Source: a virus. From it: a stretch of DNA of 34,098 nucleotides. Of the stretch, positions 23,181 through 34,098 are shown piece after piece (position 1 is the stretch's first letter; every line of letters begins with the position of its first letter). Location: the IMG/VR virus record IMGVR_UViG_3300023178_000156, positions 1 through 34,098 of that record; one strand, 5' to 3'. The notes beneath the pieces are model-generated. The model was not told the DNA's origin. It saw only the letters and a list, made by a program, of their open reading frames with translations, and did not search any database. The position numbers and the translations under genes are program-made.

Positions 23181-23479
23181 TATGCAATCTCCTTATAACC
23201 AGCAGCTTTACCATAGAATCCTAAAGATTCTAGTTTTAAAACAATCTCGTTAAATGCAGCACCTTCGCTGTTTTGTGGATAGATACCGACTGTCATTGGG
23301 TCGTCGATAAACAATTGACAATTTTCCCAGATTGGGTTATTGGAAATGTAATCATTAATGATTTTCTTTCCTTTTTCAAAGAGATTCTCGTCTCTAGTTC
23401 TGACCTCGAAGTCAGTAATTTCATAACCGTCCATAGTCAAAGATGGTTCCGGTTGGTTTCCTAATATTCTTATTTCCAT
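23180..23479 (-). CDS. Hypothetical protein, 99 aa
   Basis: First gene after the promoter at 23511-23539, with AAAGGAGTTTAA before the ATG. Soluble alpha/beta protein; begins MEIRILGNQPEPSLTMDGYE and contains FEKGKKIINDYISNNPIWEN and a C-terminal helix (FNEIVLKLESLGFYGKAAGY). No known motif. Translationally coupled to the 105-aa gene, so the two may work together. Confidence 0.72.
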   Translation of the reverse strand: MEIRILGNQPEPSLTMDGYEITDFEVRTRDENLFEKGKKIINDYISNNPIWENCQLFIDDPMTVGIYPQNSEGAAFNEIVLKLESLGFYGKAAGYKEIA

Positions 23480-23510
23480 TTAAACTCCTTTTTTCCTAAT
23501 TTATATAACC

Positions 23511-23539
23511 ATTATACCAAAATTGCTCGTTAAAGTCAA
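23511..23539 (-). promoter_or_regulatory. Leftward sigma70 promoter P23.5
   Basis: On the minus strand TTGACT (23539-23534), 17-base spacer, TATAAT (23516-23511), preceded by GTG as in the other four leftward promoters. The leader contains ATATAAATTAGGA (23506-23494), also found before two other leftward genes, then AAAGGAG. Confidence 0.85.
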
Positions 23540-23586
23540 CACGTAGAACGAAAAAAGTGCGATTATTTTGCTTTAAAAAGAAAGGA

Positions 23587-23802
23587 TTATTTGTCGTAGT
23601 ATGAGCGTACTAGATATACACGGATATATGCTAATACTGTCATTACAGCTGTGATAAGAACACTCAGCTTGAAAGGGTCTGTGATACCCATTATAGAAAT
23701 GAATAACCACAAAAAGAAAAGATTTAAAGGATAATTAATAACGAGACCAGTACCTACTGTCATAGCGGTCTCTTTATGTTTTTGTTTTGTTCGTTGGTTC
23801 AT
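23587..23802 (-). CDS. Small two-helix membrane protein, 71 aa
   Basis: Start placed at the ATG at 23802 (MNQRTKQKHKETAMTVGTGL), which overlaps the stop of the 44-aa gene by ATGA. The longer in-frame opening to 23985 runs into the tRNA and is rejected. Charged N-terminus, then two predicted membrane helices (about 20-39 and 46-63) and a basic end RVYLVRSYYDK. The layout resembles the small DUF7220-type phage membrane proteins (weak, from memory). Location downstream of the tRNA suggests expression from the ncRNA/tRNA promoter. Confidence 0.72.
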   Translation of the reverse strand: MNQRTKQKHKETAMTVGTGLVINYPLNLFFLWLFISIMGITDPFKLSVLITAVMTVLAYIRVYLVRSYYDK

Positions 23803-23933
23803 AATGCGGACCATATCAGATTTAAACAACCTTTGGTAAATGCTCCCTCGTACCAAAGTATTAACATTGCTAAAATTGTGATGGCTGTAAAACACCACAC
23901 GATTTCTCTTATTAATTGTATTATATCTTTCAT
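23799..23933 (-). CDS. Very small single-pass membrane protein, 44 aa
   Basis: ATG at 23933, only a few bases past the tRNA CCA end. Begins MKDIIQLIREIVWCFTAITI and continues LAMLILWYEGAFTKG, with a predicted membrane helix at about 11-27. Stop TGA overlaps the ATG of the 71-aa membrane protein. The coupling and matched membrane character support it as a real gene. No clear ribosome site separates it from the tRNA 3' end, so expression may need tRNA processing or a weak site. Function unknown; the pairing with a second small membrane protein is holin-like in outline only. Confidence 0.6.
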   Translation of the reverse strand: MKDIIQLIREIVWCFTAITILAMLILWYEGAFTKGCLNLIWSAL

Positions 23934-23937
23934 AATC

Positions 23938-24012
23938 TGGTAGCCCGTAGGAGAATCGAACTCCTGTTGCATGGATGAAAACCATGTGTCCTAACCACTA
24001 GACGAACGGGCC
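23938..24012 (-). tRNA. trnE: tRNA-Glu (anticodon TTC) with encoded CCA
   Basis: On the minus strand: acceptor GGCCCGT pairs with ACGGGCT (one G-U), discriminator A, genome-encoded CCA; anticodon stem CATGG/CCATG with loop TTTTCAT, giving anticodon TTC; T arm AGGAG-TTCGATT-CTCCT. D arm TCTAGTGGTTAGGA. Complete cloverleaf of 75 nt. Reads GAA/GAG, abundant in this AT-rich genome. Lies eight bases after the 3' stem of the large structured RNA and probably shares its transcript. Confidence 0.95.
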
Positions 24013-24013
24013 A

Positions 24014-24764
24014 AAACAATCGGCGGACCTTCCATATACGCCCATCAAAGGTATGTCAAGATCCGCCTTGGTATTGAACTTCTCACTCACAATCGTCATT
24101 TGTTATTTGAGCCGGTCTACCGGACCTGATGACTAATCAGGGATTTCAAACTACCTAAAACTTAAAATTTGGGGCGGTGGAATTTGTGTTAACGCAATTC
24201 GTTAAATAATGTGGAATTGTTAATCTTAAATTCCTGCCGCTACCCCGAGCTTTGAGCCCCTATTATTGAAACTCTTAAAAAATCGTAGGTACGTCTCTCG
24301 GACTTACATGGTACTCGTTAATCCCAGTCTCGGTTGGTACCGAAGTACCATCTCTGCCTAAAGGGAATAAAGCCTGGACTGCCGTCCTGTGTTCCTCGGT
24401 TTCCTTGCGGGGAAGGTGAGGCTCTTCCTTTTCCATTGCGCCCCTTCCCTAGATTATTGTACTTCATCTTGTGTTTCCGCACTAGTTTGGGGACTTCTGT
24501 ATCGAGCGTTTCTTCATACACGGAGACGCTTTCATACCCACTCTATTGATTCGTTCTGACCCGTATAATTACATGCATTCCTGCATCGGCCTTCCCATTA
24601 CTTCGGGCAATACCAACTTTGTACTTCGGTTGATATCCCCGGCTCAAGCTGCCGGTCGGGTTGTCCACCTATATCTTTGAGCCTTCCGATTGATAAGATC
24701 TTCTATTCGACTCAGGTTATCCATTCACCGATTGTCTCTGTCGGTGGGGTGTTTCCCTCAATAT
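24014..24764 (-). ncRNA. Giant structured non-coding RNA (GOLLD/ROOL-class candidate)
   Basis: About 750 bases with no credible ORF, visibly richer in G+C than flanking genes, directly behind a strong leftward promoter and ending eight bases before tRNA-Glu. Helices visible on the minus strand: CACCGA/TCGGTG (24726-24746), AGCGT/ACGCT (24505-24530), a GGGAAGG/CCTTCCC helix (24410-24449), perfect UUCG hairpin TGGTACTTCGGTACCA (24350-24335), CCTGA/TCAGG (24141-24125), CCGG-TAGA-CCGG (24123-24112) and terminal stem GGCGGA/TCCGCC (24067-24022) followed by GATTGTTTT. Size, phage context and tRNA adjacency fit GOLLD or ROOL RNAs, which form large ornate (multimeric) structures of unknown function. 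Class assignment is inference; existence as a structured RNA is better supported. Confidence 0.72.
24022..24067 (-). terminator. 3' closing stem of the ncRNA, possible weak terminator or processing stem
   Basis: GGCGGA (24067-24062) pairs with TCCGCC (24027-24022); the minus strand continues GATTGTTTT before the tRNA. Inner bases can also pair (CATAC with GTAT-ATG). The T run is short and displaced, so partial read-through into tRNA-Glu and the small membrane genes is likely. Confidence 0.4.
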
Positions 24765-24770
24765 GTGTCT

Positions 24771-24799
24771 ATTATACTATAACGAGTAGCAAAAGTCAA
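24771..24799 (-). promoter_or_regulatory. Leftward sigma70 promoter of the ncRNA/tRNA unit
   Basis: TTGACT (24799-24794), 17-base spacer, TATAAT (24776-24771), with GTG before the -35. Spacer TTTGCTACTCGTTATAG differs at one position from that of the promoter at 28975-29003. Predicted start near A24764. No ribosome site or ATG-led ORF follows, consistent with an RNA product. Confidence 0.88.
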
Positions 24800-24827
24800 C
24801 ACTTTTTTGAAAAAAGTTTTATTTTTT

Positions 24828-25223
24828 TTAATTTGATGTTAGAATCAATCTAGCATTATTAACTGTGGCAATTTGTATACCAAGAGTCACCAGGCCAACT
24901 ACATCGTTTTCCATATTGTGAGCTATTAAAGGAGCAAGTATTAATTTGTGTAATAATAATCTATCAAACGAGGGGTCCTCTCCTAATATCAAATTGCCTT
25001 CTCTTATCTGGTCTTTATTTTCCAATGCATATGCTGTAGTTGCAAAATCTAGTACATTCCAAAGATAAAAAGAATATAATGTTTCATCGGTTGCTGGGTT
25101 GTCTAATTCTACAAAGTTAAATCGTCTGCGGTCTTGTTCTATGACTATGGCATCAGCTTTCATTTGCTCGTAATCAAAAGGTTGCTGAGCTAGTGATGCT
25201 GCGACCATTGTTTCTAATAACAT
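24828..25223 (-). CDS. Hypothetical membrane-associated protein, 131 aa
   Basis: ATG with AAAGGAATAAT upstream. Hydrophobic start MLLETMVAASLAQQPFDYEQ, then YLWNVLDFATTAYALENK (53-70), GEDPSFDRLLLHKLILAPLI and a final hydrophobic segment (VVGLVTLGIQIA). The D-x2-TT-x3-x-E-N pattern and E-D-P-S turn recall small DUF5658-type membrane proteins, a tentative resemblance. It is the last gene of the leftward unit ahead of the ncRNA promoter. Function unknown. Confidence 0.7.
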   Translation of the reverse strand: MLLETMVAASLAQQPFDYEQMKADAIVIEQDRRRFNFVELDNPATDETLYSFYLWNVLDFATTAYALENKDQIREGNLILGEDPSFDRLLLHKLILAPLIAHNMENDVVGLVTLGIQIATVNNARLILTSN

Positions 25224-25306
25224 ATTATTCCTTTAATGTTTAAGCGAGGGTAATTTACGGTATATAAACATACCTTATAGTCATAAACGACGCTGGTAGC
25301 GATTCT

Positions 25307-26254
25307 CTATGAATGTACCGATTTACGACCTTGTGGAAACACATCGGCACTAAATGCGACATCTTCATATTGTTTTTCAGTACCAAACTCTCGCATGAGT
25401 TTCATTCCATAATTATTTGATTTATTTACAATATCCACATCAGATTTTAATATGGGAGCATTTTGTCTTGCTGGTAAACCATCAGCTCTTTTAATTGCAT
25501 TTAAATCAACAAAATGGTGAACTCGGCCATAACGTTCTCCAACTGTGACACAATCTGGATGCATTTCTTTTAACATCTGTGATTTAGTTTGAGAAGCATC
25601 TTCCTTATAATCGTTATAAATTTCAGATGTATTTCCACCCTTTACAGTTCCGGTTCTTAATTTACCACATAAGAAGGAATACATTAACATTGTACAGAGC
25701 CCTCGTTTTAAAACTCGTATACTCAGATCTACATCTTCGTTATATTTTCCTCTCCATTTTTCTGGGCAATCGTTGTCAATTAAAAAACATGACATGATTC
25801 TGGTATTCAGTACATAAGGTGGGTAATCAGTATCATCAACCACAAAGAATTTATATTGTAAACCAGCTAAAGCTACGTTTTCGTATCTATCTACAAAATC
25901 CTCGGTCGCTCTAAAAATAGCAGAACCTTTTTCCACACGATATCTTTTATTATTATGAACGCGCCAAAATTCAGATATATTATCGTCCATTAACCAATGA
26001 CGCTTGAAACCATTTGCCTGAGAATGTTCCCAGCACCAGTTCCGAGCTGGACCAGAACCTTTTCCATGATTACTGAATGGAAGTTTTAATACAGTTCCAA
26101 GTGGTCCAATGACCTCTTTATAGTTATCATATTCTTGTGGCTCAACTGCGATGAAATATGGGACGCCCATTTTCTCTAAAGCCTTAGGAGTGTATCGACT
26201 TTCCCAGCGACCTTTTGATATGATATAAATTGGATAACGATTATTCTTCGACAT
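25307..26254 (-). CDS. TET-associated-type glycosyltransferase (TAGT-like)
   Basis: 315 aa GT-A-like fold: IYIISKGRWESRYTPKALEK (9-28), YFIAVEPQEYDNY (33-45), LPFSNHGKGSGPARNW (58-73), HWLMDDNISEF (86-96) with the acidic D-D-N metal/sugar-nucleotide motif, and YNEDVDLSIRVLKRG (171-185) with a catalytic-type acidic cluster. This motif order matches TET/JBP-associated glycosyltransferases of phages, proposed to add sugars to oxidised or modified DNA bases. No TET dioxygenase or thymidylate-hydroxymethylase is in this window. It overlaps the 88-aa gene by 14 bases. Alternative: another GT-A enzyme modifying protein or surface glycans. Confidence 0.75.
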   Translation of the reverse strand: MSKNNRYPIYIISKGRWESRYTPKALEKMGVPYFIAVEPQEYDNYKEVIGPLGTVLKLPFSNHGKGSGPARNWCWEHSQANGFKRHWLMDDNISEFWRVHNNKRYRVEKGSAIFRATEDFVDRYENVALAGLQYKFFVVDDTDYPPYVLNTRIMSCFLIDNDCPEKWRGKYNEDVDLSIRVLKRGLCTMLMYSFLCGKLRTGTVKGGNTSEIYNDYKEDASQTKSQMLKEMHPDCVTVGERYGRVHHFVDLNAIKRADGLPARQNAPILKSDVDIVNKSNNYGMKLMREFGTEKQYEDVAFSADVFPQGRKSVHS

Positions 26255-26507
26255 ATCTACTCATCTGATTTTTTTCTGATTCTTTTCTTGGGTACCAAAC
26301 CACATTTGTTTTGTCAGTCAACTTATAATTCATTGCTTCGCCAAAATATGCTCGGTCTTCTTTTGACCGAAACTTTAATGTGACTTGTTTCCAAGGTTCA
26401 GTATTACGAGATACAAATGAAGGCATTCCAGCTGCATACCATTGTATGTAAGGATTACGCCATTCTTTTTGTAGCTCTTCTAGTGTGTCTACGGGTTTAA
26501 ATGCCAT
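26241..26507 (-). CDS. Small conserved phage protein upstream of TAGT, 88 aa
   Basis: Contains GMPSFVSRNTEPWKQVTLKF, RSKEDRAYFGEAMNYKLTDK and TNVVWYPRKE. This reminds me of a small phage family (E-W-x-x-MP-x-F, F-x-x-x-E-D, T-x-K-T-x-x-x-WYP) often found beside DNA-modification or ParB-like genes; it has no assigned function that I know. Soluble alpha/beta. The overlap with the glycosyltransferase gene suggests coupled synthesis and perhaps a shared task. Confidence 0.75.
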   Translation of the reverse strand: MAFKPVDTLEELQKEWRNPYIQWYAAGMPSFVSRNTEPWKQVTLKFRSKEDRAYFGEAMNYKLTDKTNVVWYPRKESEKNQMSRYVEE

Positions 26508-26527
26508 AATATTATTTAGATAATTTC

Positions 26528-27232
26528 TTAGGAAAAGAAATCGTCAATAAATGCAAATGCCTTTTCAAGGGTCATATTGTTCTCATCTATTGAGTAAATA
26601 TTTCTTGTTCCTGGTTTCGTAATTTGTTCTGGGTCAATATCAAAATGAGAACAGAATTCCTCAAGTTGCTTTAATCGTCCATCAAGTTTTTCCTTATTCG
26701 TCCAAACACCAACTGTAAGTGATACATCGCCTTCAACAGAGATGGTCACGGTCGGTTGCATTTGTTGACGAGTAGAAAACTCTAAAATGTGATTAGATGA
26801 CTTAATTACAATTACATTCAAACGACCAGCAAATTTTGCATAATTCTCCACATACCATTCTGGCATGGCTTCGAAATTATCATGTTGGTCTTTTTTGAAT
26901 TCATCAAAAAGTTCACTGAACTTTGCCATAATGAAACACTCCTTATGATGCCCAGCAACAGAGTTGTCACGAGGCTGATTTTTAGAAATGAGGAAGGATT
27001 CTAGAATGAAAGACTGAACATCTTTCTTTTCGTTCTTAAATTTTTCAAGGTTCTTTGCAATAATATAGAGATTATTTGTGTCATAATCCTTAGAGTCGAT
27101 GTGCGAAAGTGCTCTATTATAATTGCCCTTTCCAATATAAACCCATTCATCATTTTCTTTATATCCGTACACATACTGACCTAAGGTTTCCCAAAAGGCA
27201 CCAGGCGCGGATTCAAAGTCACTATCAAACAT
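26528..27232 (-). CDS. GIY-YIG-like (LEM-3 type) nuclease-fold protein
   Basis: The start is placed at ATG 27232 (MFDSDFESAP) because TAGGA lies just upstream; a TTG five codons earlier is in frame but has no site. N-terminal domain: YVYGYKENDEWVYIGKGNYN (20-39) with the Y-V-Y/Y-I-G pair, R40, SH (43-44), and ILESFLISKNQPRDN with a potential metal-binding Glu (E78), the pattern of LEM-3-like GIY-YIG nucleases. The C-terminal ~110 residues have a beta-rich region (QPTVTISVEGDVSLTVGVWT) and a helical end. T4-like phages carry GIY-YIG homing endonucleases, but a homing role is not shown; repair or defence nuclease are alternatives. Confidence 0.7.
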   Translation of the reverse strand: MFDSDFESAPGAFWETLGQYVYGYKENDEWVYIGKGNYNRALSHIDSKDYDTNNLYIIAKNLEKFKNEKKDVQSFILESFLISKNQPRDNSVAGHHKECFIMAKFSELFDEFKKDQHDNFEAMPEWYVENYAKFAGRLNVIVIKSSNHILEFSTRQQMQPTVTISVEGDVSLTVGVWTNKEKLDGRLKQLEEFCSHFDIDPEQITKPGTRNIYSIDENNMTLEKAFAFIDDFFS

Positions 27233-27258
27233 AAGTATTCCTACCAATAATTGATTCC

Positions 27259-27287
27259 ATTATAACACGCCGACTACGAAATGTCAA
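27259..27287 (-). promoter_or_regulatory. Leftward sigma70 promoter P27.3
   Basis: TTGACA (27287-27282), 17-base spacer, TATAAT (27264-27259): full consensus, preceded by CGTG. Leader of ~20 bases to the ATG at 27232. Drives the GIY-YIG-like gene and, by spacing, the 88-aa, TAGT and 131-aa genes. Confidence 0.9.
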
Positions 27288-27306
27288 CACGTTAAAAGTA
27301 ATTTTT

Positions 27307-27513
27307 TTATTTAATGTAATGTTCTAGAAAGTCGTGCATTATTTCTGGGTCATTATCAATTGATTGAACAATTGTTGCAATACCTAATGCATCGTTTCTT
27401 TTCATGAGTTCTTTGACTTCTTTTGCTCTCATTTCACCTTTTTCAACTAAGGCTTCATCGGTGAGTGCATGTGCTTCTTGAACTTTAAAGAGGGTAAAAT
27501 CATTAACTTTCAT
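27307..27513 (-). CDS. Hypothetical small protein, 68 aa
   Basis: Soluble helical protein (EAHALTDEALVEKGEMRAKE, KELMKRNDALGIATIVQSID). Overlaps the preceding gene by 11 bases and is the last of a run of three small genes before the next promoter. No recognised domain. Overlap structure and absence of frame breaks support it as genuine. Confidence 0.62.
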   Translation of the reverse strand: MKVNDFTLFKVQEAHALTDEALVEKGEMRAKEVKELMKRNDALGIATIVQSIDNDPEIMHDFLEHYIK

Positions 27514-27685
27514 TATATTTTAGGATTTCCAAATCTTTACCAGTTCCTCGTGTTTTGAGATAACCAGATTTAATTAATTCATCTATTGTCGCACCAGTAA
27601 TTACTTTTTTATTATAAGTTAATCCCCAGTACAGACCTATTGCGGTGTAAATAATAGCCACTACTAAAAAGTGTGATAATTCCAT
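27503..27685 (-). CDS. Small membrane-anchored protein, 60 aa
   Basis: N-terminal membrane helix (HFLVVAIIYTAIGLYWGLTY, about 5-24) followed by a short soluble tail with TGATIDELIKSGYLKTRGTG, which looks like a small helix-turn segment. ATG overlaps the previous stop (TAATG) with CGGAGGCAATTA upstream, a strong site. Function unknown; anchored cytoplasmic domain proteins of this size are common in early phage clusters. Confidence 0.65.
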   Translation of the reverse strand: MELSHFLVVAIIYTAIGLYWGLTYNKKVITGATIDELIKSGYLKTRGTGKDLEILKYNES

Positions 27686-27954
27686 TAATTGCCTCCGTGT
27701 CGCGCTAATATCTTTTCAATGATTTTATCCTGAGCAGTGAGGTCGTCGTAATGAATTCTATCCTCTTTACGATCTTCTTCACTATCTGGAATAATAAACC
27801 CTTCCTGAATAGCCATATTATAGATTTGGTCATCAGACATATGCGAAAGACATGCTTCGATAAGTTCAGTTTTACGCAACCTTCCTTTACGAATATCTTC
27901 CATAAGCGACACGGCAATAGCAGTGCTATTACTGTTTAAGTCTTGTGTAGACAT
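27685..27954 (-). CDS. Hypothetical protein, 89 aa
   Basis: ATG at 27954 chosen over a TTG two codons upstream because AGGAGAAATTTGTCT gives usable spacing. Begins MSTQDLNSNSTAIAVSLMED, then helical: RKGRLRKTELIEACLSHMSD, DQIYNMAIQEGFIIPDSEED. The middle resembles a small helix-turn-helix-like or helical bundle; no firm family. The leader has ATATAAATTAGGA (27978-27966), shared with two promoter-proximal genes, so an additional transcription or processing signal may sit here. Confidence 0.68.
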   Translation of the reverse strand: MSTQDLNSNSTAIAVSLMEDIRKGRLRKTELIEACLSHMSDDQIYNMAIQEGFIIPDSEEDRKEDRIHYDDLTAQDKIIEKILARHGGN

Positions 27955-27991
27955 AGACAAATTTCTCCTAATTTATATAATGTATATATTA

Positions 27992-28564
27992 TTAAGCCGA
28001 ACCCGGCAATCCTTGATATCCCTGCCACCAATCTGGAGCAGGTCTACCCCATTCCCATTTCGCAAAAGGTTTTGCGGCATGGTAATAGTTCCTATAAGCT
28101 TGCACTGCATCACCTTCCACCTTACAGGTTGGATAATGATTCATCGCTTGTGCGAACTCAGTAAGTCCTTTATCTGGTATATTTGTTGGTGGTTTCTCCA
28201 ACAGTGTACCGAGTTTGTTAAATGTGGCATGAACTCTGTCTCGTCTGTATTGATACTCTTTTGCCATTGCGACAAAATGTTCATAATGCCATTCGTAATT
28301 TGTCTTGCTTTCTGCTGTCCATGTAGTACAGGGGTGGTATTTGTGCACCGCTGCATAGTATAATTCGTCTCTTTCGTCTCCAAAAGTATAATATTGTTGC
28401 ATTGTCTTACCAGACTTTGATGGCCTACGTTCTGGTGTGCCGTCTAACATACGATGAACGGTCGATAACATCTGTGCTGATTCGACAATCATTTTAGGTA
28501 TGTGTTTATCGCACAAATTCTGTGCGGCAATTACTGGGTCGTAGTCTGTGACAAAAATATTCAT
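27992..28564 (-). CDS. Conserved phage protein, MNIFV-DxDP family, 190 aa
   Basis: Starts MNIFVTDYDPVIAAQNLCDK then HIPKMIVESAQMLSTVHRML, a very recognisable N-terminus of a widespread uncharacterised phage family (D-P-x2-A-A-x3-C-D-K-H-x2-K-M-x2-E-S-A-Q). Other conserved patches are YYAAVHKYHPCTTWTAESKT, NYEWHYEHF and GLTEFAQAMNH. Conserved Asp, His, Lys, Glu and Trp suggest an enzyme or nucleic-acid-binding protein, but no activity is established to my knowledge. The ATG lies only ten bases from the -10 box, so the mRNA is probably leaderless. Confidence 0.8.
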   Translation of the reverse strand: MNIFVTDYDPVIAAQNLCDKHIPKMIVESAQMLSTVHRMLDGTPERRPSKSGKTMQQYYTFGDERDELYYAAVHKYHPCTTWTAESKTNYEWHYEHFVAMAKEYQYRRDRVHATFNKLGTLLEKPPTNIPDKGLTEFAQAMNHYPTCKVEGDAVQAYRNYYHAAKPFAKWEWGRPAPDWWQGYQGLPGSA

Positions 28565-28574
28565 ATTGTGTGGT

Positions 28575-28602
28575 ATTATATCATACTCATCTCAAAAGTC
28601 AA
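28575..28602 (-). promoter_or_regulatory. Leftward sigma70 promoter P28.6
   Basis: TTGACT (28602-28597), 16-base spacer, TATAAT (28580-28575), preceded by GCGTG. The ATG at 28564 follows the -10 by ten bases, leaving a 5' leader of only about 3-4 bases. Confidence 0.8.
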
Positions 28603-28616
28603 CACGCTAGTGCTGA

Positions 28617-28662
28617 AATGTCGAGCGAAACCCGACATTCCAGATTTTGCCTAGATTAGGCA
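28617..28662 (-). other. Two RNA stem-loops between leftward units
   Basis: Minus-strand TGCCTA-ATC-TAGGCA (28662-28648) overlaps the stop of the 95-aa gene; AATGTCGGG-TTTCG-CTCGACATT (28639-28617) follows, with a G-U pair that exists only on the minus strand. No long U run, so a weak terminator or RNA-processing element rather than a classical terminator. Lies just upstream of promoter P28.6. Confidence 0.5.
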
Positions 28663-28943
28663 GCTGAAAGCATGGAAGCTGGGACCTTCCAAGTACCACT
28701 CTCAGTTTTGACATGTTGATATGTCGGATTCTTTTTAACCAAAGTTCCAGACACAACCTCGCCAGTTCTACTATTTGTAAACTGAACTTCCTGACCAACT
28801 CTAAATTCAGCCTTTTTACAAGCGGCATGGAATTTTTGTTGAGCCTTGAACATTCTAGCTACATATGCAAAATCTTCTGACGAAGACATTTTAGAGAAGG
28901 CTTTCTCTATTTGGTTAATATCTGATTTTTTTAATGTTAACAT
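28656..28943 (-). CDS. Small conserved phage protein with SH3/KOW-like C-terminus, 95 aa
   Basis: ATG at 28943 with ATAGGAGTTGTTT upstream; a TTG two codons earlier is less likely. N-terminal helices (LTLKKSDINQIEKAFSKMSS, FAYVARMFKAQQKFHAACKK), then a small beta-barrel: FRVGQEVQFTNSRTGEVVSG, TLVKKNPTYQHVKTESGTWK, VPASMLSAA. This G-x-x-V-x-F/W ... G-x-V/I pattern is common in small phage proteins that may bind nucleic acid. First gene of the leftward region. Confidence 0.75.
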   Translation of the reverse strand: MLTLKKSDINQIEKAFSKMSSSEDFAYVARMFKAQQKFHAACKKAEFRVGQEVQFTNSRTGEVVSGTLVKKNPTYQHVKTESGTWKVPASMLSAA

Positions 28944-28974
28944 AAACAACTCCTATTTCCTAATTTATATGTAC

Positions 28975-29003
28975 ATTATACTATAACGAGCAGCAAATGT
29001 CAA
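28975..29003 (-). promoter_or_regulatory. Leftward sigma70 promoter P29.0
   Basis: TTGACA (29003-28998), 17-base spacer TTTGCTGCTCGTTATAG, TATAAT (28980-28975): full consensus with GTG before the -35. The spacer is nearly identical to that of the ncRNA promoter. The leader carries ATATAAATTAGGA (28970-28958) and AGGAG. Confidence 0.9.
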
Positions 29004-29046
29004 CACTTTTTGTAAATTTTTTTAATTTTTTTGCCTGTACTATTCT

Positions 29047-29054
29047 TATAAATA
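29047..29054 (+). promoter_or_regulatory. T4-type late promoter box of the curli cassette
   Basis: TATAAATA 39 bases before the 29093 start, in the divergent gap where the leftward early genes end and the rightward cassette begins. The leader (CCCTGAGGGCGCGTCTCTCC) can form a CCCT/AGGG hairpin. No sigma70 consensus promoter is visible rightward here, so the cassette is probably late-expressed. Confidence 0.6.
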
Positions 29055-29092
29055 AACCCTGAGGGCGCGTCTCTCCTAAAATAGGAAAAATA

Positions 29093-29389
29093 ATGGAAGA
29101 AATATTTCAGCTGATTTCGGATGTGGGTTTACCCATCGCCGGGGCGTTGACAATGGGATTCTTCATATTCATTATTATTAAGCAAATTTTTGAAGGAATC
29201 GTTGATAGCATTAATACATTAACAATGTTTTGTGAAAGCCTCGAAAACAGAGCTCGGACTATGTCAAATGAGATGGTCAAAATCGATCTGCTTGTGAGTA
29301 GCGCGCTGGGATTAAATCCTGATATTGAGAGAGTAGCTCGGGCAGAGAATTTTATTGAGGACGGAAAACTCGACGTAAGGAGAGATTAA
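29093..29389 (+). CDS. Small membrane/coiled-coil protein A of curli cassette, 98 aa
   Basis: TAGGAAAAATA precedes the ATG. Architecture: short N-terminal helix, one strong membrane segment (about 11-33, VGLPIAGALTMGFFIFIIIK) and a soluble helical tail (TMFCESLENRARTMSNEMVK, IDLLVSSALGLNPDIERVAR). The gene at 29609 has the same plan (V/I-S-D-x-G-x-P, membrane helix, long helix), so they look like paralogues. The one-TM plus amphipathic coil layout is seen in some small holin-like phage proteins, but identity is unproven. First gene of the unit. Confidence 0.7.
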   Translation: MEEIFQLISDVGLPIAGALTMGFFIFIIIKQIFEGIVDSINTLTMFCESLENRARTMSNEMVKIDLLVSSALGLNPDIERVARAENFIEDGKLDVRRD

Positions 29390-29607
29390 TGTTATTTTGT
29401 GGCTATAAATGGGAGCTGACTCCCTGTGGCGATATTCTAATTTTTGACGCAGAATCGCGATATGCAGACCTAACATTGGATAAATTTAATTGGAATGTAG
29501 GAGATTATTTTGTGGCAAGTGAAACTGAATTAGGCCAACCGATGTTAAGTAGAGTAGACAAACGTGTTGATTTTGATAATAATGAACAATTAAAGTTTGA
29601 TTTTTAA
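29389..29607 (+). CDS. Hypothetical small protein, 72 aa
   Basis: Start overlaps the previous stop (TAATG) and GTAAGGAGAG is just upstream. Soluble beta-rich protein: MLFCGYKWELTPCGDILIFD, ADLTLDKFNWNVGDYFVASE, QPMLSRVDKRVDFDNNEQLK. Its compact domain has no signal peptide or membrane segment. It sits between the two paralogous membrane proteins and is co-translated with the first. Not recognised. Confidence 0.65.
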   Translation: MLFCGYKWELTPCGDILIFDAESRYADLTLDKFNWNVGDYFVASETELGQPMLSRVDKRVDFDNNEQLKFDF

Positions 29608-29608
29608 G

Positions 29609-29878
29609 ATGGATATAGCACAATTAGTATCAGATTATGGCTTTCCGACCATAATGGTAGTCGGATTGGGCTATTTCGTGTATTTTGTTTATAACTTTAT
29701 AAATGAACATATAGACCCAGCAATTGAGAAAATGCATTTTCAATTAATAAAGGTAATTGACCAAATGAGAATGCTAGACCAAGATCTTATTCGCTTACAG
29801 CAAAAAGTAGATGTGGTATTAAAATATAAAGAAAATGAAAGGCTTAAAAATAAAGATGAAAAACCAACTAAAAAGTAG
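29609..29878 (+). CDS. Small membrane/coiled-coil protein B of curli cassette, 89 aa
   Basis: ATG at 29609 right after the previous stop; an in-frame TTG at 29597 is inside the upstream gene. MDIAQLVSDYGFPTIMVVGL starts a membrane segment (about 12-31), followed by a long Gln/Lys/Asp-rich coiled coil (FQLIKVIDQMRMLDQDLIRL, QQKVDVVLKYKENERLKNKD) and a basic end. Same layout as the 98-aa protein. It overlaps the start of csgF. The pair could form a membrane platform or lysis-type element serving the secretion genes; this is inference. Confidence 0.7.
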   Translation: MDIAQLVSDYGFPTIMVVGLGYFVYFVYNFINEHIDPAIEKMHFQLIKVIDQMRMLDQDLIRLQQKVDVVLKYKENERLKNKDEKPTKK

Positions 29879-30350
29879 TTTAATTTTATTATTTGCAATA
29901 GGTACCGTTCAGGCAGAACCTATTGTACACAAGTTTAAAAATCCTTCTTTCAGTGGTGTGGGTACAGGTGCTCACTATCTGACCATTGAAAACCAGGAAC
30001 ACAGTAGAAAAGAACAAATCAAAGATGCTTTAGAAGCTGCACGAAGAGCTGCAGAGAGAGAAGCAGATAATACAACCCTCGCAAAATTTATTCGTAATTT
30101 AGAATCGCGTATATATGCTCAATTAGCAAAACAACTAGTTGACAATATGTTTTCAAATGATAATCCCGTAAGGTTTGGTTCATTTGTCCTTGAAGGTTCT
30201 ACAGTGACATATGAAGTACTCACAAATGAAGATGGTACTGAATATATCAAAATGACAATTGTAGGCGAAGATGGAACAACAACAGTAATTGAAATTCCTA
30301 TAGGAACAGGAACATTTGGAAGCGATGGAAACTCTGACCCGAACGGCTAG
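29856..30350 (+). CDS. csgF: CsgF-like curli secretion accessory factor
   Basis: Start placed at ATG 29856 (signal peptide MKNQLKSSLILLFAIGTVQA, cleavage before EPIV); ATG 29835 is in frame and would add seven residues. The mature N-terminus EPIVHKFKNPSFSGVGTGAH matches E. coli CsgF (FQFRNPNFGG ... NNGAF), the part that inserts into the CsgG channel and makes the second constriction. The Ala/Glu/Arg-rich helix (AARRAAEREADNTTLAKFIR) and terminal strands (VTYEVLTNEDGTEYIKMTIV, TTTVIEIPIGTG) match the family's neck helix and DPBB-like end. 144 aa mature against ~119 in E. coli. Overlaps csgG by 26 bases. Confidence 0.9.
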   Translation: MKNQLKSSLILLFAIGTVQAEPIVHKFKNPSFSGVGTGAHYLTIENQEHSRKEQIKDALEAARRAAEREADNTTLAKFIRNLESRIYAQLAKQLVDNMFSNDNPVRFGSFVLEGSTVTYEVLTNEDGTEYIKMTIVGEDGTTTVIEIPIGTGTFGSDGNSDPNG

Positions 30351-31302
30351 TATTATAGCACTTGCATTTATGACTGGCTGTGCCAGTGTTCCGCAATGGT
30401 CTGAAGGTCCAGCTTATTGTGAATATGGCGAAGGAAGATTTGCACAAGGATTTAATACCGATTTTGATAATGATGGTATTATAAATGATGATGCTTTAAG
30501 TGTTGGAAAACAACTGTATACCGGTACTCGTAAATATATCGAGACAAAGCAAATTTGTGTTGAACAACCAGAAGTTGTAGATCTTCCATCATATATTGAT
30601 TTATTAAATTTACCACCAGCTGAAACAAGACCGGTCGTTGCTGTATATCAATTTTTAGATAAAACAGGGCAACGTAAAGATTCAGTCACAGGACAAAGTT
30701 TTTCCACAGCTGTGACTCAAGGTGGAACAGAATTATTAATTGACGCTCTTAAAACTGCAGGCAATGGAACCTGGTTTAGAGTAGTTGAACGACAAGGGAT
30801 TGATGCTCTTGTAAGAGAAAGACAAATTATTAGAAGTGGCAGAGATGAAGCTGCCAAAGCTCTTGGAGAAGAGCCACAAAAATTAGGACCACTTTTATTT
30901 GCAGGAATGATAATTGAAGGTGGTATTATTGGATATGATAGTAATTTAAAAACTGGTGGCCGAGGGGCCAGAACTTTAGGGATTGGATTTTCACGTCAAT
31001 ATAGACAAGACCAAGTGACAGTATCGCTGAGAGCGGTAAGTGTTTTAACAGGCGAAGTACTATTAAATGTCCAAACAAAAAAGACAATTTTAAGTTATGG
31101 TTCCGGAGGGGATATATTTAGATTTATTGAACAAGGAACACAGTTGATTGAATATGAAGACGGTGTGGGAAATAATGAATCAGTGACATACGCAGTGCGA
31201 ACAGCTATCGAGGCTGCCGTGCTGGAAATGGTTTACCAAGGAGACAGACGTGGCTTCTGGAAAATCAATAATAAAAAAATAGAGGAAACGAAAGATGATT
31301 AA
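30325..31302 (+). CDS. csgG: CsgG-like outer-membrane curli secretion channel (lipoprotein)
   Basis: 325 aa from ATG 30325 (an in-frame TTG at 30316 is rejected). Signal peptide with lipobox FMTGC, C19 the lipidated residue. Core matches CsgG throughout: LPSYIDLLNLPPAE, VYQFLDKTGQ, SFSTAVTQGGTELLIDALK, WFRVVERQGIDALVRERQII, IEGGIIGYDSNLKTGGRGAR, RAVSVLTGEVLLNVQTKKTI, LSYGSGGDIFRFIE, QGDRRGFW. This gives the nonameric 36-strand channel. The constriction loop keeps Phe (F126, as E. coli F56) but lacks the Tyr and Asn (Y51, N55). Residues ~25-85 are an N-terminal extension with a calcium-type D-x-D-x-D-G-I loop (46-56) and extra Cys. Overlaps the curlin gene by eight bases. Confidence 0.95.
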   Translation: METLTRTASIIALAFMTGCASVPQWSEGPAYCEYGEGRFAQGFNTDFDNDGIINDDALSVGKQLYTGTRKYIETKQICVEQPEVVDLPSYIDLLNLPPAETRPVVAVYQFLDKTGQRKDSVTGQSFSTAVTQGGTELLIDALKTAGNGTWFRVVERQGIDALVRERQIIRSGRDEAAKALGEEPQKLGPLLFAGMIIEGGIIGYDSNLKTGGRGARTLGIGFSRQYRQDQVTVSLRAVSVLTGEVLLNVQTKKTILSYGSGGDIFRFIEQGTQLIEYEDGVGNNESVTYAVRTAIEAAVLEMVYQGDRRGFWKINNKKIEETKDD

Positions 31303-32023
31303 AAAACTATTAGGCCTAAGTTTAGTATTAATCTCTGGTTTCGCATTTGCTCAAGCTACCGATGATAACGAAATTAACATCGAGCAGGTTGGTGATACTT
31401 TAACATTATATGTTGACCAATATGGTTATGGTAATAAAATTGGAGCTGACGATTTTAGTTCATCTTCAAGTGCTATGGTTATTACTGGTTCAACTTTGAC
31501 TTTTAATATAGACCAAATCGGTAATCAGAATCTATTATTCGGCCCATTAATTGCTGATAGTAGCACCTATAACTTATTGTTTACAGGTGATTCTAACGAG
31601 TGGGATTGGGACATTGGATATGTTGGCTCTTCAGATAGTACTACTATGGATGTAGATATTACTGGTGATTCTAACATAATGGATTTTGACCAAGGTTATA
31701 ACGCAAGCGCGGAAAGGTTGGATTTCGATCTAACTATAATTGGAGATAGTAATGTCTTTGATGTCGATATAGACGTAGATGATGCTATTTGGAACTTCGA
31801 TATTACTGGAGGTTCAAATGACATTAATACTATGCAAAAAGATGGTGGTGAACAAGAAATCAATTTAACACTTGATGGTTCATCAGCTGATATTGACATT
31901 AATCAGTTAAGTGGTACATGTCCTACGGGTGTCTCAACCTGTAATGGTATCATAACACTAGATGTTGATTCTGAAAATGCAACAATTCAGATTAATCAAA
32001 AAGACAGCTCTAACGACAGCTAG
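31295..32023 (+). CDS. Curlin-like repeat protein 1 (secreted, amyloid-type candidate)
   Basis: 242 aa. Signal peptide MIKKLLGLSLVLISGFAFAQ with cleavage near ATDD. About eight repeats of ~22-26 residues, each with two short alternating strands and a G-x-x-N turn: NEINIEQVGDTLTLYVDQYG, LTFNIDQIGNQN, DVDITGDSNIMDFDQG, LTIIGDSNVFDVDID, FDITGGSNDINTMQK, LTLDGSSADIDINQLSG. The first repeats keep the curlin Q-x-G-x-x-N signature; later ones are Asp-rich with fewer Gln. A Cys pair (TCPTGVSTC) lies in the last repeat. RBS AGAGGAAACGAAAG. Immediately after csgG, so the obvious secretion substrate. Confidence 0.85.
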   Translation: MIKKLLGLSLVLISGFAFAQATDDNEINIEQVGDTLTLYVDQYGYGNKIGADDFSSSSSAMVITGSTLTFNIDQIGNQNLLFGPLIADSSTYNLLFTGDSNEWDWDIGYVGSSDSTTMDVDITGDSNIMDFDQGYNASAERLDFDLTIIGDSNVFDVDIDVDDAIWNFDITGGSNDINTMQKDGGEQEINLTLDGSSADIDINQLSGTCPTGVSTCNGIITLDVDSENATIQINQKDSSNDS

Positions 32024-33122
32024 TATTCTACTATTTTCGATGGGTTCTAATGCAGAGCCCATCGGGAATATCATTGAGCACAAGGGAAGTGCTTCTATCA
32101 CTCGTGAAGCTGGAGCAACGTTAGAGGTTTCAGATACACAAGTTCCAGATATTGTAATGAATGACACGGCCGAAACAGAAAATGGTCGAATGTTAATTGA
32201 GTTCCTAGACGAGGCTGAACTTAGCCTTACAGAAAATACAAAGGTATACATTGACCGTGTATACTATGACCCAGATCCAAGCAAATCAAAAATGGCTATG
32301 AGAATGGCAATGGGAACTGCAAGGTTCGCATCTGGCCGATTGGGCATGGTCAATAAAAATAATATAGACATACAAACACCTACAGCTACTATATCAGTTC
32401 GTGGGACAGATTTTACAACAACTATTGACGAGCTCGGAAGATCGCTTGTCATTCTTTTACCAGACCAATATGGTAATCCATCAGGTACCATAGAGGTATC
32501 AAATCTGGGTGGTACTATCGTTTTAGAGGAAGCTTATGCAGCGACAATGGTTTCCACATTGGATTCTCCACCTACTCCTAAAGTCAGTATACAGAACATC
32601 ACACCAGCGATGATTGATAATATGTTTATCGTATCACCGCCACCAGAAGTGAAAGAAGCTATTGAGGAAGAAATGGCAGATGATGCAAATGAAGACCAAG
32701 GATTGCTTGACATTGACTTTTTAGAGTTTACAGAATTGGAAGAAGATTATCTTGAAGATGATGCATTGGAATTTACTGAACTGGATATTGATTTTCTTGA
32801 TGTTGATTTCTTAACTGATGTTTTGGATATTGTGGAAGAGCTCGTAAAAACCACTGCTGCGCTTGATGATAGAGCAATTGCTGGAACTTCATTGGGAGCA
32901 GAATTAAAGGGAGCCACATTTGGACTTAATGCTGATTCTCAATATAACATTTATGAACAAGATGGAAAAATTGTATTTTACAGACAAGTGCAAGACACAA
33001 TTAAATTAGTATTTGCTATAGATGCTTCTGTAAGAATTGACACAGAGGTAGAAGGTTATTCTGGTATTATTAATTTAAATGGTGGAGACGATTCAGTTAT
33101 AGTTATAAAACAAGGTGGATAA
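31977..33122 (+). CDS. Exported FecR-domain protein in curli cassette
   Basis: Start at ATG 31977 (or 31962) overlaps the curlin gene end by 47-62 bases, so translation is coupled. Signal peptide MQQFRLIKKTALTTASILLF SMGSNA, cleaved before EPIG. A FecR domain spans about 35-190: GSASITREAGATLEV, AETENGRMLIEFLDEAELSL, GTARFASGRLGMVNKNNIDI, TPTATISVRGTDFTTT. FecR domains sense or bind surface and sugar ligands and often accompany exported beta-solenoids. A run of acidic repeats follows (LDIDFLEFTELEEDYLEDDA, LEFTELDIDFLDVDFLTD). The C-terminal beta domain ends IINLNGGDDSVIVIKQGG. A periplasmic or surface partner of the curlins is inferred. Confidence 0.82.
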   Translation: MQQFRLIKKTALTTASILLFSMGSNAEPIGNIIEHKGSASITREAGATLEVSDTQVPDIVMNDTAETENGRMLIEFLDEAELSLTENTKVYIDRVYYDPDPSKSKMAMRMAMGTARFASGRLGMVNKNNIDIQTPTATISVRGTDFTTTIDELGRSLVILLPDQYGNPSGTIEVSNLGGTIVLEEAYAATMVSTLDSPPTPKVSIQNITPAMIDNMFIVSPPPEVKEAIEEEMADDANEDQGLLDIDFLEFTELEEDYLEDDALEFTELDIDFLDVDFLTDVLDIVEELVKTTAALDDRAIAGTSLGAELKGATFGLNADSQYNIYEQDGKIVFYRQVQDTIKLVFAIDASVRIDTEVEGYSGIINLNGGDDSVIVIKQGG

Positions 33123-33130
33123 ATAAAATT

Positions 33131-33349
33131 ATGGAAATAGAAAAAATAATTGCAAATAGATGTGATTGTTCCTTATTGGAAGTCACAGACGAAAAACATA
33201 TTGTAGATGATTTAAACGCAGATTCATTAAGCGTAGTAGAAATTATTATGGATTTGGAAGAAGAATTTGGATTCCAAATTCCAGATGATGAAGCTGAAGA
33301 ATTATTTACAGTAAAACAGATTAAAGACTATGTTGAGGCGAATGCTTAA
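33131..33349 (+). CDS. Acyl carrier protein
   Basis: 72 aa (usual ~75-80). Four-helix ACP: EKIIANRCDCSLLEVTDEKH, then DDLNADSLSVVEIIMDLEEE with phosphopantetheine-accepting S32 in the D-S-L motif, FGFQIPDDEAEELFTVKQIK and DYVEANA. All functional landmarks are present, so it can probably be charged by a holo-ACP synthase. It overlaps the next gene by one base (TAATG). No acyltransferase is in the window. Sitting between an exported FecR protein and a curlin, it may provide acyl groups for a lipid or toxin-type modification; this is speculation. Confidence 0.93.
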   Translation: MEIEKIIANRCDCSLLEVTDEKHIVDDLNADSLSVVEIIMDLEEEFGFQIPDDEAEELFTVKQIKDYVEANA

Positions 33350-34086
33350 TGGACGAATTTGATAGAAAATTAGATAAATGGTTATTAGGATTTTCCTGGT
33401 TATTGTTGGGAATGTATTTTATTTTGGCAGCTGGTAAAGCTTATGCAGATAATGTAATAACCATTGAACAAACTGGTGATAATTTAAATTTAGAGATTCA
33501 GCAATACGGTGCTGATAATGAAATTAAAATGTTGGACCAATATTCGTATATCAATGCGTCAACATTAGATTTATTAGTTGTTCAGTATAATACCGCAGGT
33601 CTTGATAACACAATAGTATTTGATGAAATCAGTGGAACAGGTAATGAATTTAAATTAGGTCAAGGTGTTGCTTTTGATAACACCACACAAGGCTGGAACT
33701 ATGATGGTGCCGAAGGCGGTGGTCATTATATGGAAATAGATTTATATGGTAATGATAACTTTGTTGAATGGCATCAAACAAATCAAAGTGGCGCAACTGA
33801 CGGACATGATTTTAACTTACATGTTGCTGGGTCTGATAATTGGATAGATGGAAGACAACAATCTTCAGGTGCAAAAGAAGCAAACATTACACTTTATAAT
33901 TCAGACAATGTTTTAACATTTAGACAAAAAGGTGCTAACGCAAACCACACAGCAAATATTACTTTAGATGGTATTTACGGAACGGACGCGCTTATTAGAC
34001 AAAATAGCACAACCAATCAAACATATAACTTATCAGTGGATTGTTATACGGTTGGTGGTTGCTCAGTAAATGTGTTGCAAGAATAA
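33349..34086 (+). CDS. Curlin-like repeat protein 2 (secreted)
   Basis: 245 aa. Unusual signal: acidic-basic n-region MDEFDRKLDKW, hydrophobic core LLGFSWLLLGMYFILAA and AYA cleavage before DNV. Seven or so curlin-like repeats: ITIEQTGDNLNLEIQQYGAD, NEIKMLDQYSY, MEIDLYGNDNFVEWHQTN, LHVAGSDNWIDGRQQSSG, ITLYNSDNVLTFRQKGAN, ITLDGIYGTDALIRQNSTTN. Keeps more Gln/Asn than protein 1, closer to classical curlins. The first repeat matches protein 1 (I-x-IEQ-x-GD-x-L-x-L-x3-QYG). A C-terminal Cys pair (CYTVGGC) is also shared. Either subunit or nucleator; which is unclear. Confidence 0.86.
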   Translation: MDEFDRKLDKWLLGFSWLLLGMYFILAAGKAYADNVITIEQTGDNLNLEIQQYGADNEIKMLDQYSYINASTLDLLVVQYNTAGLDNTIVFDEISGTGNEFKLGQGVAFDNTTQGWNYDGAEGGGHYMEIDLYGNDNFVEWHQTNQSGATDGHDFNLHVAGSDNWIDGRQQSSGAKEANITLYNSDNVLTFRQKGANANHTANITLDGIYGTDALIRQNSTTNQTYNLSVDCYTVGGCSVNVLQE

Positions 34087-34098
34087 TGCAAGAGTTAG
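34086..34098 (+). CDS. Start of a further gene in the curli cassette (3' partial)
   Basis: ATG overlaps the curlin-2 stop (TAATG), the same coupling used through this cassette; only four codons (Met-Gln-Glu-Leu) are visible. CsgE- or CsgC/H-like partners, or another curlin, could lie here; the sequence does not say. Confidence 0.4.

Follow-up and report, generated by a model that had tools for sequence, protein, structure and literature searches.

The virus record IMGVR_UViG_3300023178_000156 (34,098 bases; the whole stretch is called the window here) carries at its right end, from 29093 to 34086, a single rightward unit of abutting or overlapping genes that is predicted to encode a type VIII (curli) secretion cassette. 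The window comes from a T4-like marine myophage: phage families are recognised for its terminase, tail sheath and major head protein, and over 746 bases its capsid gene shows 76% identity to Pelagibacter phage Mosig. Read in order, the genes are leader 1, a 72-amino-acid (aa) open reading frame (ORF), leader 2, csgF, csgG, curlin 1, a FecR-domain protein, an acyl carrier protein (ACP) and curlin 2 (Table 1). The initial annotation had described csgF, csgG, two curlins, FecR and ACP as one overlapping rightward unit, headed by two small membrane/coil proteins and a TATAAATA box; Pfam matches, coordinates and homology agree with these main genes, and the leader proteins and the box are present as described. 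It had overlooked the 72-aa ORF and the continuation of the unit past the window edge.

Table 1. Features of the predicted curli-type cassette in the window, with family matches given as accession and E-value
Feature	Position	Strand	Support
TATAAATA, T4-type late promoter box	29047..29054	+	exact match
Leader gene 1, 98-aa membrane-helix plus coil protein	29093..29389	+	phrog_18771 9.7e-24; hydrophobicity peak 2.35
72-aa ORF, no family	29389..29607	+	in few relatives (8/100 loci)
Leader gene 2, 89-aa paralogue of leader gene 1	29609..29878	+	phrog_18771 5.2e-24 (ORF from 29597); hydrophobicity peak 1.55; alignment
CsgF	29856..30350	+	PF10614 1.7e-14, above curated cut-off
CsgG, predicted outer-membrane lipoprotein pore	30325..31302	+	PF03783 5.5e-55, above curated cut-off; solved E. 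coli CsgG 2e-49
Curlin-like protein 1, predicted exported repeat protein	31295..32023	+	PF07012 0.0015; strand-rich repeat model, pLDDT 81
Predicted exported FecR-domain protein with curlin-like C-terminal strand motif	31977..33122	+	PF04773 3.8e-9, above curated cut-off; motif; model
ACP, probable recent insertion	33131..33349	+	PF00550 3.4e-10, above curated cut-off; not in sisters L008, L057
Curlin-like protein 2, C-terminal Cys pair	33349..34086	+	PF07012 0.015; homologous to curlin 1
The CsgF start is the ATG before the signal peptide, picked by eye (the ORF opens at 29835), and the CsgG start is the first ATG (the ORF opens at TTG 30316). Export signals of the cassette proteins were assigned by eye.

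Contig L004 (L numbers are our handles for contigs and loci), which is 99.94% identical to the window over 10,783 bases (window 23318-34098), continues past the window edge with genes for a 119-aa membrane protein that Pfam does not match, a 679-aa protein that combines CHASE2 (9e-29) with an adenylate/guanylate cyclase domain (1e-15), and an exported protein of 223 aa. The cassette is therefore longer than was first stated.

Conservation of the cassette among viral relatives

In the viral collection 348 stretches were confirmed to hold a CsgG relative, and the best 80, which include some near-duplicates, were kept for comparison. CsgF lies upstream of CsgG in all 77 loci with room for it, and two leader genes are found in 76 of these 77. 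Downstream, every one of the 49 loci with enough sequence keeps the order curlin, FecR, (ACP), curlin, cyclase: 46 read curlin-FecR-curlin-cyclase (one with a split cyclase frame), and the remaining three read the same with an inserted ACP. Such conservation argues that the arrangement is not due to chance.

Pore and substrate proteins

The two pore components retain recognizable features of their families. An N-terminal F-x-[NS]-P-x-F motif is present in 55/55 CsgF relatives, and a search of solved structures with the CsgF profile gave no match. The window CsgG aligns to the solved E. coli CsgG across residues 91-321, and a lipobox-like site, defined by a loose pattern, is found in 55 of 59 CsgG sequences. 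In the CsgG loop with Phe56 (a numbering that we assume) the Phe-Ser-Thr-Ala-Val stretch is retained and the residues preceding it differ. Approximately 70 additional residues separate the lipobox from the CsgG core; this extension (residues ∼22-90 of the window protein) contains an acidic DFDNDG stretch that resembles a calcium loop by eye, and the CsgG proteins of HTVC008M and Melnitz are ∼50 residues shorter. A CsgG-like stretch (43.7% identity) also occurs in the 1,499-base record OR851715.1, named Salmonella phage S.Kent 1-2-1, which may be host DNA.

Two predicted curlin-repeat substrates are present in the cassette, as judged from family matches and from their homology to each other (hhalign probability 98.3, E 1.2e-14). 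Every sequence in the 47-member alignment of curlin 1 hits PF07012 at E <= 1, the best at 1e-5, and neither window curlin has a PHROG match. AlphaFold2 models curlin 1 as a strand-rich repeated fold with a predicted local distance difference test (pLDDT) score of 81 and a predicted template modelling (pTM) score of 0.77, and its VIA-align neighbours are general beta-helical proteins, headed by the SufB-SufC-SufD complex (Z 17.3, 199 residues, root-mean-square deviation (rmsd) 3.3). In listings read by eye, two cysteines lie within 15 residues of the end of curlin 2 in 49/49 distinct sequences, and within 38 residues of the end of curlin 1 in 53/55, the exceptions being L002 and L003. Weak CsgH matches (best 0.008) were seen in four of the 47 curlin-1 relatives.

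The FecR-domain protein ends in a curlin-like motif

In the FecR protein a signal peptide (by eye) is followed by the FecR domain, a linker modelled at low confidence and a strand-rich C-terminal domain (mean pLDDT 67). By fold, the FecR part of the model matches the anti-sigma signalling domain of PupR (rmsd 2.8 over 139 residues, 9% identity, VIA Z 15.2) and, weakly, the ‘cell surface anchoring domain’ 5ix9 (rmsd 2.1 over 72 residues, Z 6.5); the C-terminal domain was hardly probed by this fold search. Searching solved structures with the FecR profile gave no match.

Within the last 10 residues of the FecR protein we found a motif, hydrophobic-x-hydrophobic-x-Gln, in 54/54 distinct phage sequences but in 0/22 distinct complete bacterial FecR-domain ORFs, these controls being ORFs complete in the fetched DNA, some of them near relatives and the last few weak matches. 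The motif was picked after viewing the sequences, and members of one family are not independent. The same motif stands within the last 10 residues of curlin 2 in 45/49 sequences (47/49 within the last 20), and in curlin 1, where a short tail follows it, within the last 10 in 2/55 and within the last 20 in 55/55. Elsewhere in the cassette it is found within the last 10 residues of none of 104 leader proteins, 56 CsgF, 59 CsgG and 40 cyclases, and of one in 32 members of the 223-aa family. Ten complete FecR proteins from phage-type cassettes in bacterial bins also end with it (read by eye). The difference between the phage and bacterial proteins hints that the phage FecR protein may be a fibre part rather than a regulator. 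The motif was not found in the published accounts examined, which comprise search results and partial texts.

A late promoter box is conserved ahead of the first gene only

In 56 of 79 loci, a count that includes near-duplicates, the TATAAATA box lies no more than 100 nucleotides (nt) ahead of the first gene; for each other cassette gene this holds in 0 or 1 locus. Among distinct upstream sequences it occurs within 150 nt in 38/55, compared with 2.7% of random stretches (212/7,900), some first-gene starts having been set mechanically and possibly too far upstream. The late box is thus conserved at the first gene only, a point not found in the available parts of the published accounts examined, and the late expression proposed in the initial annotation is supported as far as the sequence tells. 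The window spacing from box to first gene is 46 nt. Exactly 13 nt separate box and ATG at 18 distinct first-gene sites (upstream of leader gene 1 in L005, L010, L019, L078 and others) and at 18 other sites in the fetched loci. If the T4 late box occupies positions −13 to −6, as we take it to do, this spacing would make the late mRNA leaderless.

The leader genes are not histidine kinases

The available text of PMC9599517 labels the gene or genes ahead of csgF as histidine kinases, which we equate with the leader genes by position. The leader proteins fall into two paralogous types, each with a hydrophobic stretch and a charged coil, and both window proteins belong to the same PHROG family (phrog_18771). 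Our hydrophobicity threshold is passed by 86/104 leader proteins, with window leader 2 narrowly below it. They measure 83-126 residues, 52 of the 104 have no histidine at all, and none of the 22 families listed for 30 leader members is a kinase family. We therefore reject the kinase label and regard the leader genes as encoding predicted membrane-coil proteins without a kinase domain, a correction not found in those parts of the published accounts that we examined.

The acyl carrier protein is a probable recent insertion

Among the 49 loci that extend far enough downstream, only three have ACP (L004, L060 and L061, representing two lineages), and in these it sits between the FecR stop and the curlin-2 start. 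It is missing from close sisters: L057 lacks it with CsgG and FecR 98.7 and 99.0% identical to those of L060, and L008 lacks it with a FecR 96% identical to that of the window. We therefore reject ACP as an integral part of the cassette and read it as a probable recent insertion. The DSL serine of its PP-binding domain is kept in 7/7 distinct ACP relatives, the nearest of which (57-61% identical, L085-L099) lie in loci without cassette genes; in the two of these 15 neighbourhoods viewed (L086 and L091) the neighbours appear structural or spanin-like by eye. ACP genes thus stand at varied positions in marine phages (window 33131-33349, L060:7175-7384, L091:6998-7213, L086:6998-7213), and in three of the four the ACP stop codon and the following start codon overlap in TAATG, resembling a small mobile gene unit. 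A literature search combining ACP with curli, phage, marine and auxiliary metabolic gave no match. Elsewhere, the FecR-curlin-2 junction holds ORFs of 46-69 aa where the window has ACP (L079:9737-9946, L062:9784-9924); these show a WH...KG...WIF-like pattern and look like membrane proteins by eye.

Phage-type and bacterial curli loci

CsgG, CsgF and curlin-like proteins are common to the phage cassette and to the curli loci of Alphaproteobacteria and E. coli (csg). In the class of a bin titled Maricaulis, CsgF was found in 7/385 genomes, six of them above the cut-off, and one of these six is the Maricaulis bin itself, whose cassettes are of phage type. At the other five loci our phage models find CsgG and curlin-like ORFs in 5/5 and CsgF in 3/5, and detect no leader gene, FecR, ACP or cyclase in the ∼19 kb fetched; the FecR-family matches in those genomes sit away from the curli loci. 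Within the order to which a bin titled Candidatus Pelagibacter belongs, only 1/197 genomes has CsgF, namely that bin, and the contig concerned also holds phage terminase and portal genes. Given this near-absence and the phage contig, the phage would bring the whole function if its host is SAR11.

A CsgF profile search of genome contigs returned 11 loci, all with the phage-type gene order and not that of bacterial curli loci. Phage genes beside the cassette are shown for L110 and, weakly, for L109; one ORF was tested in L104 and two in L129, and none of them had a match. Phage-type cassettes (L102-L112) occur in bins titled Flavobacteriales, Planctomycetaceae, Synechococcus, Candidatus Pelagibacter and others, so csg genes of marine bins may be viral.

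Elsewhere in the window, positions 25310-26254 (−) match a beta-glucosyl-HMC-alpha-glucosyltransferase family (phrog_842, 1e-50), and 23938-24012 (−) hold a tRNA-Glu gene with anticodon ttc.

Discussion

We consider a functional curli-type cassette that provides a late surface coat in a T4-like marine myophage to be the best reading, and on the sequence evidence would give it a probability of roughly two in three. The cassette would be transcribed as one late unit and, late in infection, its proteins would be exported by the Sec pathway. CsgG and CsgF would then form an outer-membrane pore through which the curlins may exit, to polymerise outside and cover the infected cell with an amyloid coat. 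Since its C-terminus ends like a curlin, the FecR protein at the surface could anchor, cap or nucleate the fibres, while the membrane cyclase may report envelope state or be a co-travelling signalling gene, and ACP would be a passenger. Being made late, the coat would most likely act at and after lysis rather than exclude other phages early, by holding virions and neighbouring cells together or by masking receptors on the dying cell and its debris.

Several results weigh against this reading. In the profile searches that the initial annotation had proposed, CsgF, CsgG and FecR score above the cut-offs, the curlins fall below theirs singly (Curlin_rpt, PF07012: 0.0015 and 0.015), and no CsgE is recognised by Pfam among the nine window and three downstream proteins, the rest of the genome fragment not having been searched. 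Foldseek finds no solved structure similar to curlin 1 at E <= 0.001. The exact TATAAATA box is absent upstream of the first gene in 17/55 distinct sequences, including the cultured isolates L002 and L003, and infected cultures showed no clumping according to the part of PMC9004378 consulted. The FecR tail is not supported as a curlin repeat, as hidden Markov models (HMMs) of the tail and of the repeats score a median near 0 bits on FecR; likewise, hhalign comparison of the FecR C-terminal domain with the curlins is no better than with reversed or unrelated controls, leaving only the terminal motif. That motif also occurs in 9/19 of the 119-aa membrane protein family.

A more specific proposal, which we regard as possible but doubtful, is that the phage FecR protein is a built-in fibre part and not a regulator: its FecR domain would hold the protein at the cell surface and its curlin-like last strand would nucleate, cap or anchor the amyloid, replacing CsgB, in a rewired late curli system that coats cells and debris around lysis. 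This anchoring role may be likened to that of long bacterial surface proteins with FecR domains at their N-termini.

The CsgG/CsgF pore could instead be a lysis device, acting together with the two small membrane proteins to depolarise the envelope or breach it when infection ends. For the pore of Melnitz, the available text of PMC9004378 (2022) proposes a role in lysis, as a gated secretin or pinholin. The late box suits this idea, as do a weak holin PHROG match of leader protein 1 (0.0013) and weak YvrJ matches in 2/30 leader members (best 0.13). CsgG is, however, an outer-membrane pore, and lysis leaves unexplained two curlins, a FecR protein and a cyclase kept in order in 49/49 loci, which makes this alternative unlikely.

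We think it very unlikely that the cassette works chiefly as a signalling or uptake module, with FecR and the CHASE2 cyclase sensing the state of the envelope or of iron and CsgG admitting solutes. The PupR-like fold of the FecR part, the CHASE2 cyclase itself and a cyclase-like ORF near five bacterial FecR loci speak for such a module. It nevertheless does not account for the curlins, the FecR protein appears fully exported (its topology was judged by eye), and Pfam finds no sigma factor among the cassette proteins. Furthermore, among the first 44 bacterial matches listed when the phage FecR profile is used, which have E-values up to 2.3e-24, 35 are frames of at least 500 aa, shorter frames being common further down the list, and RTX, cadherin-like or Calx-beta repeats are found in five of the ten such long proteins scanned.

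Least probable of all is a curli coat for early superinfection exclusion, suggested both in the accessible part of PMC9599517 and in the initial annotation, as it is a late-type box that is conserved upstream. Superinfection exclusion is generally expected early in infection.

The kind of cassette is already known, and the window is a further example with an ACP insertion. In the portions of these papers available, PMC7029224 (2020) describes csgF and csgG in pelagimyophages and suggests sibling capture, and PMC9599517 (2022) extends the set to curlins, FecR and cyclase, found in both myoviruses and podoviruses of Pelagibacter and expressed in metatranscriptomes, with superinfection defence proposed among other roles. 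The statement of the initial annotation that csgF/csgG-type genes occur in some pelagimyophages agrees with PMC7029224 and with the HTVC008M record, which itself names CsgF, CsgG and a curlin; its view that the present set is richer than known does not hold, as only ACP is extra. The type VIII secretion system of Pelagibacter phages (HTVC008M and the podovirus clades of PMC9599517) has the same order of leader(s), csgF, csgG, curlin, FecR, second curlin and cyclase, and differs in that ACP stands between FecR and the second curlin in the window only. Melnitz (L003) shows the same order and families without ACP; its record annotates curlin-repeat, FecR and cyclase proteins, and the text of PMC9004378, as far as available, states that csgA and csgB are lacking. 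Proposals of a role in superinfection exclusion, aggregation or lysis are likewise in print already, in the parts of these accounts consulted.

Predictions on when the cassette acts and which of its parts matter follow from the late box, the FecR tail and the corrected reading of the leader genes. If amyloid fibres are truly made late, the virus would give its planktonic host a surface organelle that the host's group seems to lack, which would bear on the chances of virions encountering new cells in dilute seawater.

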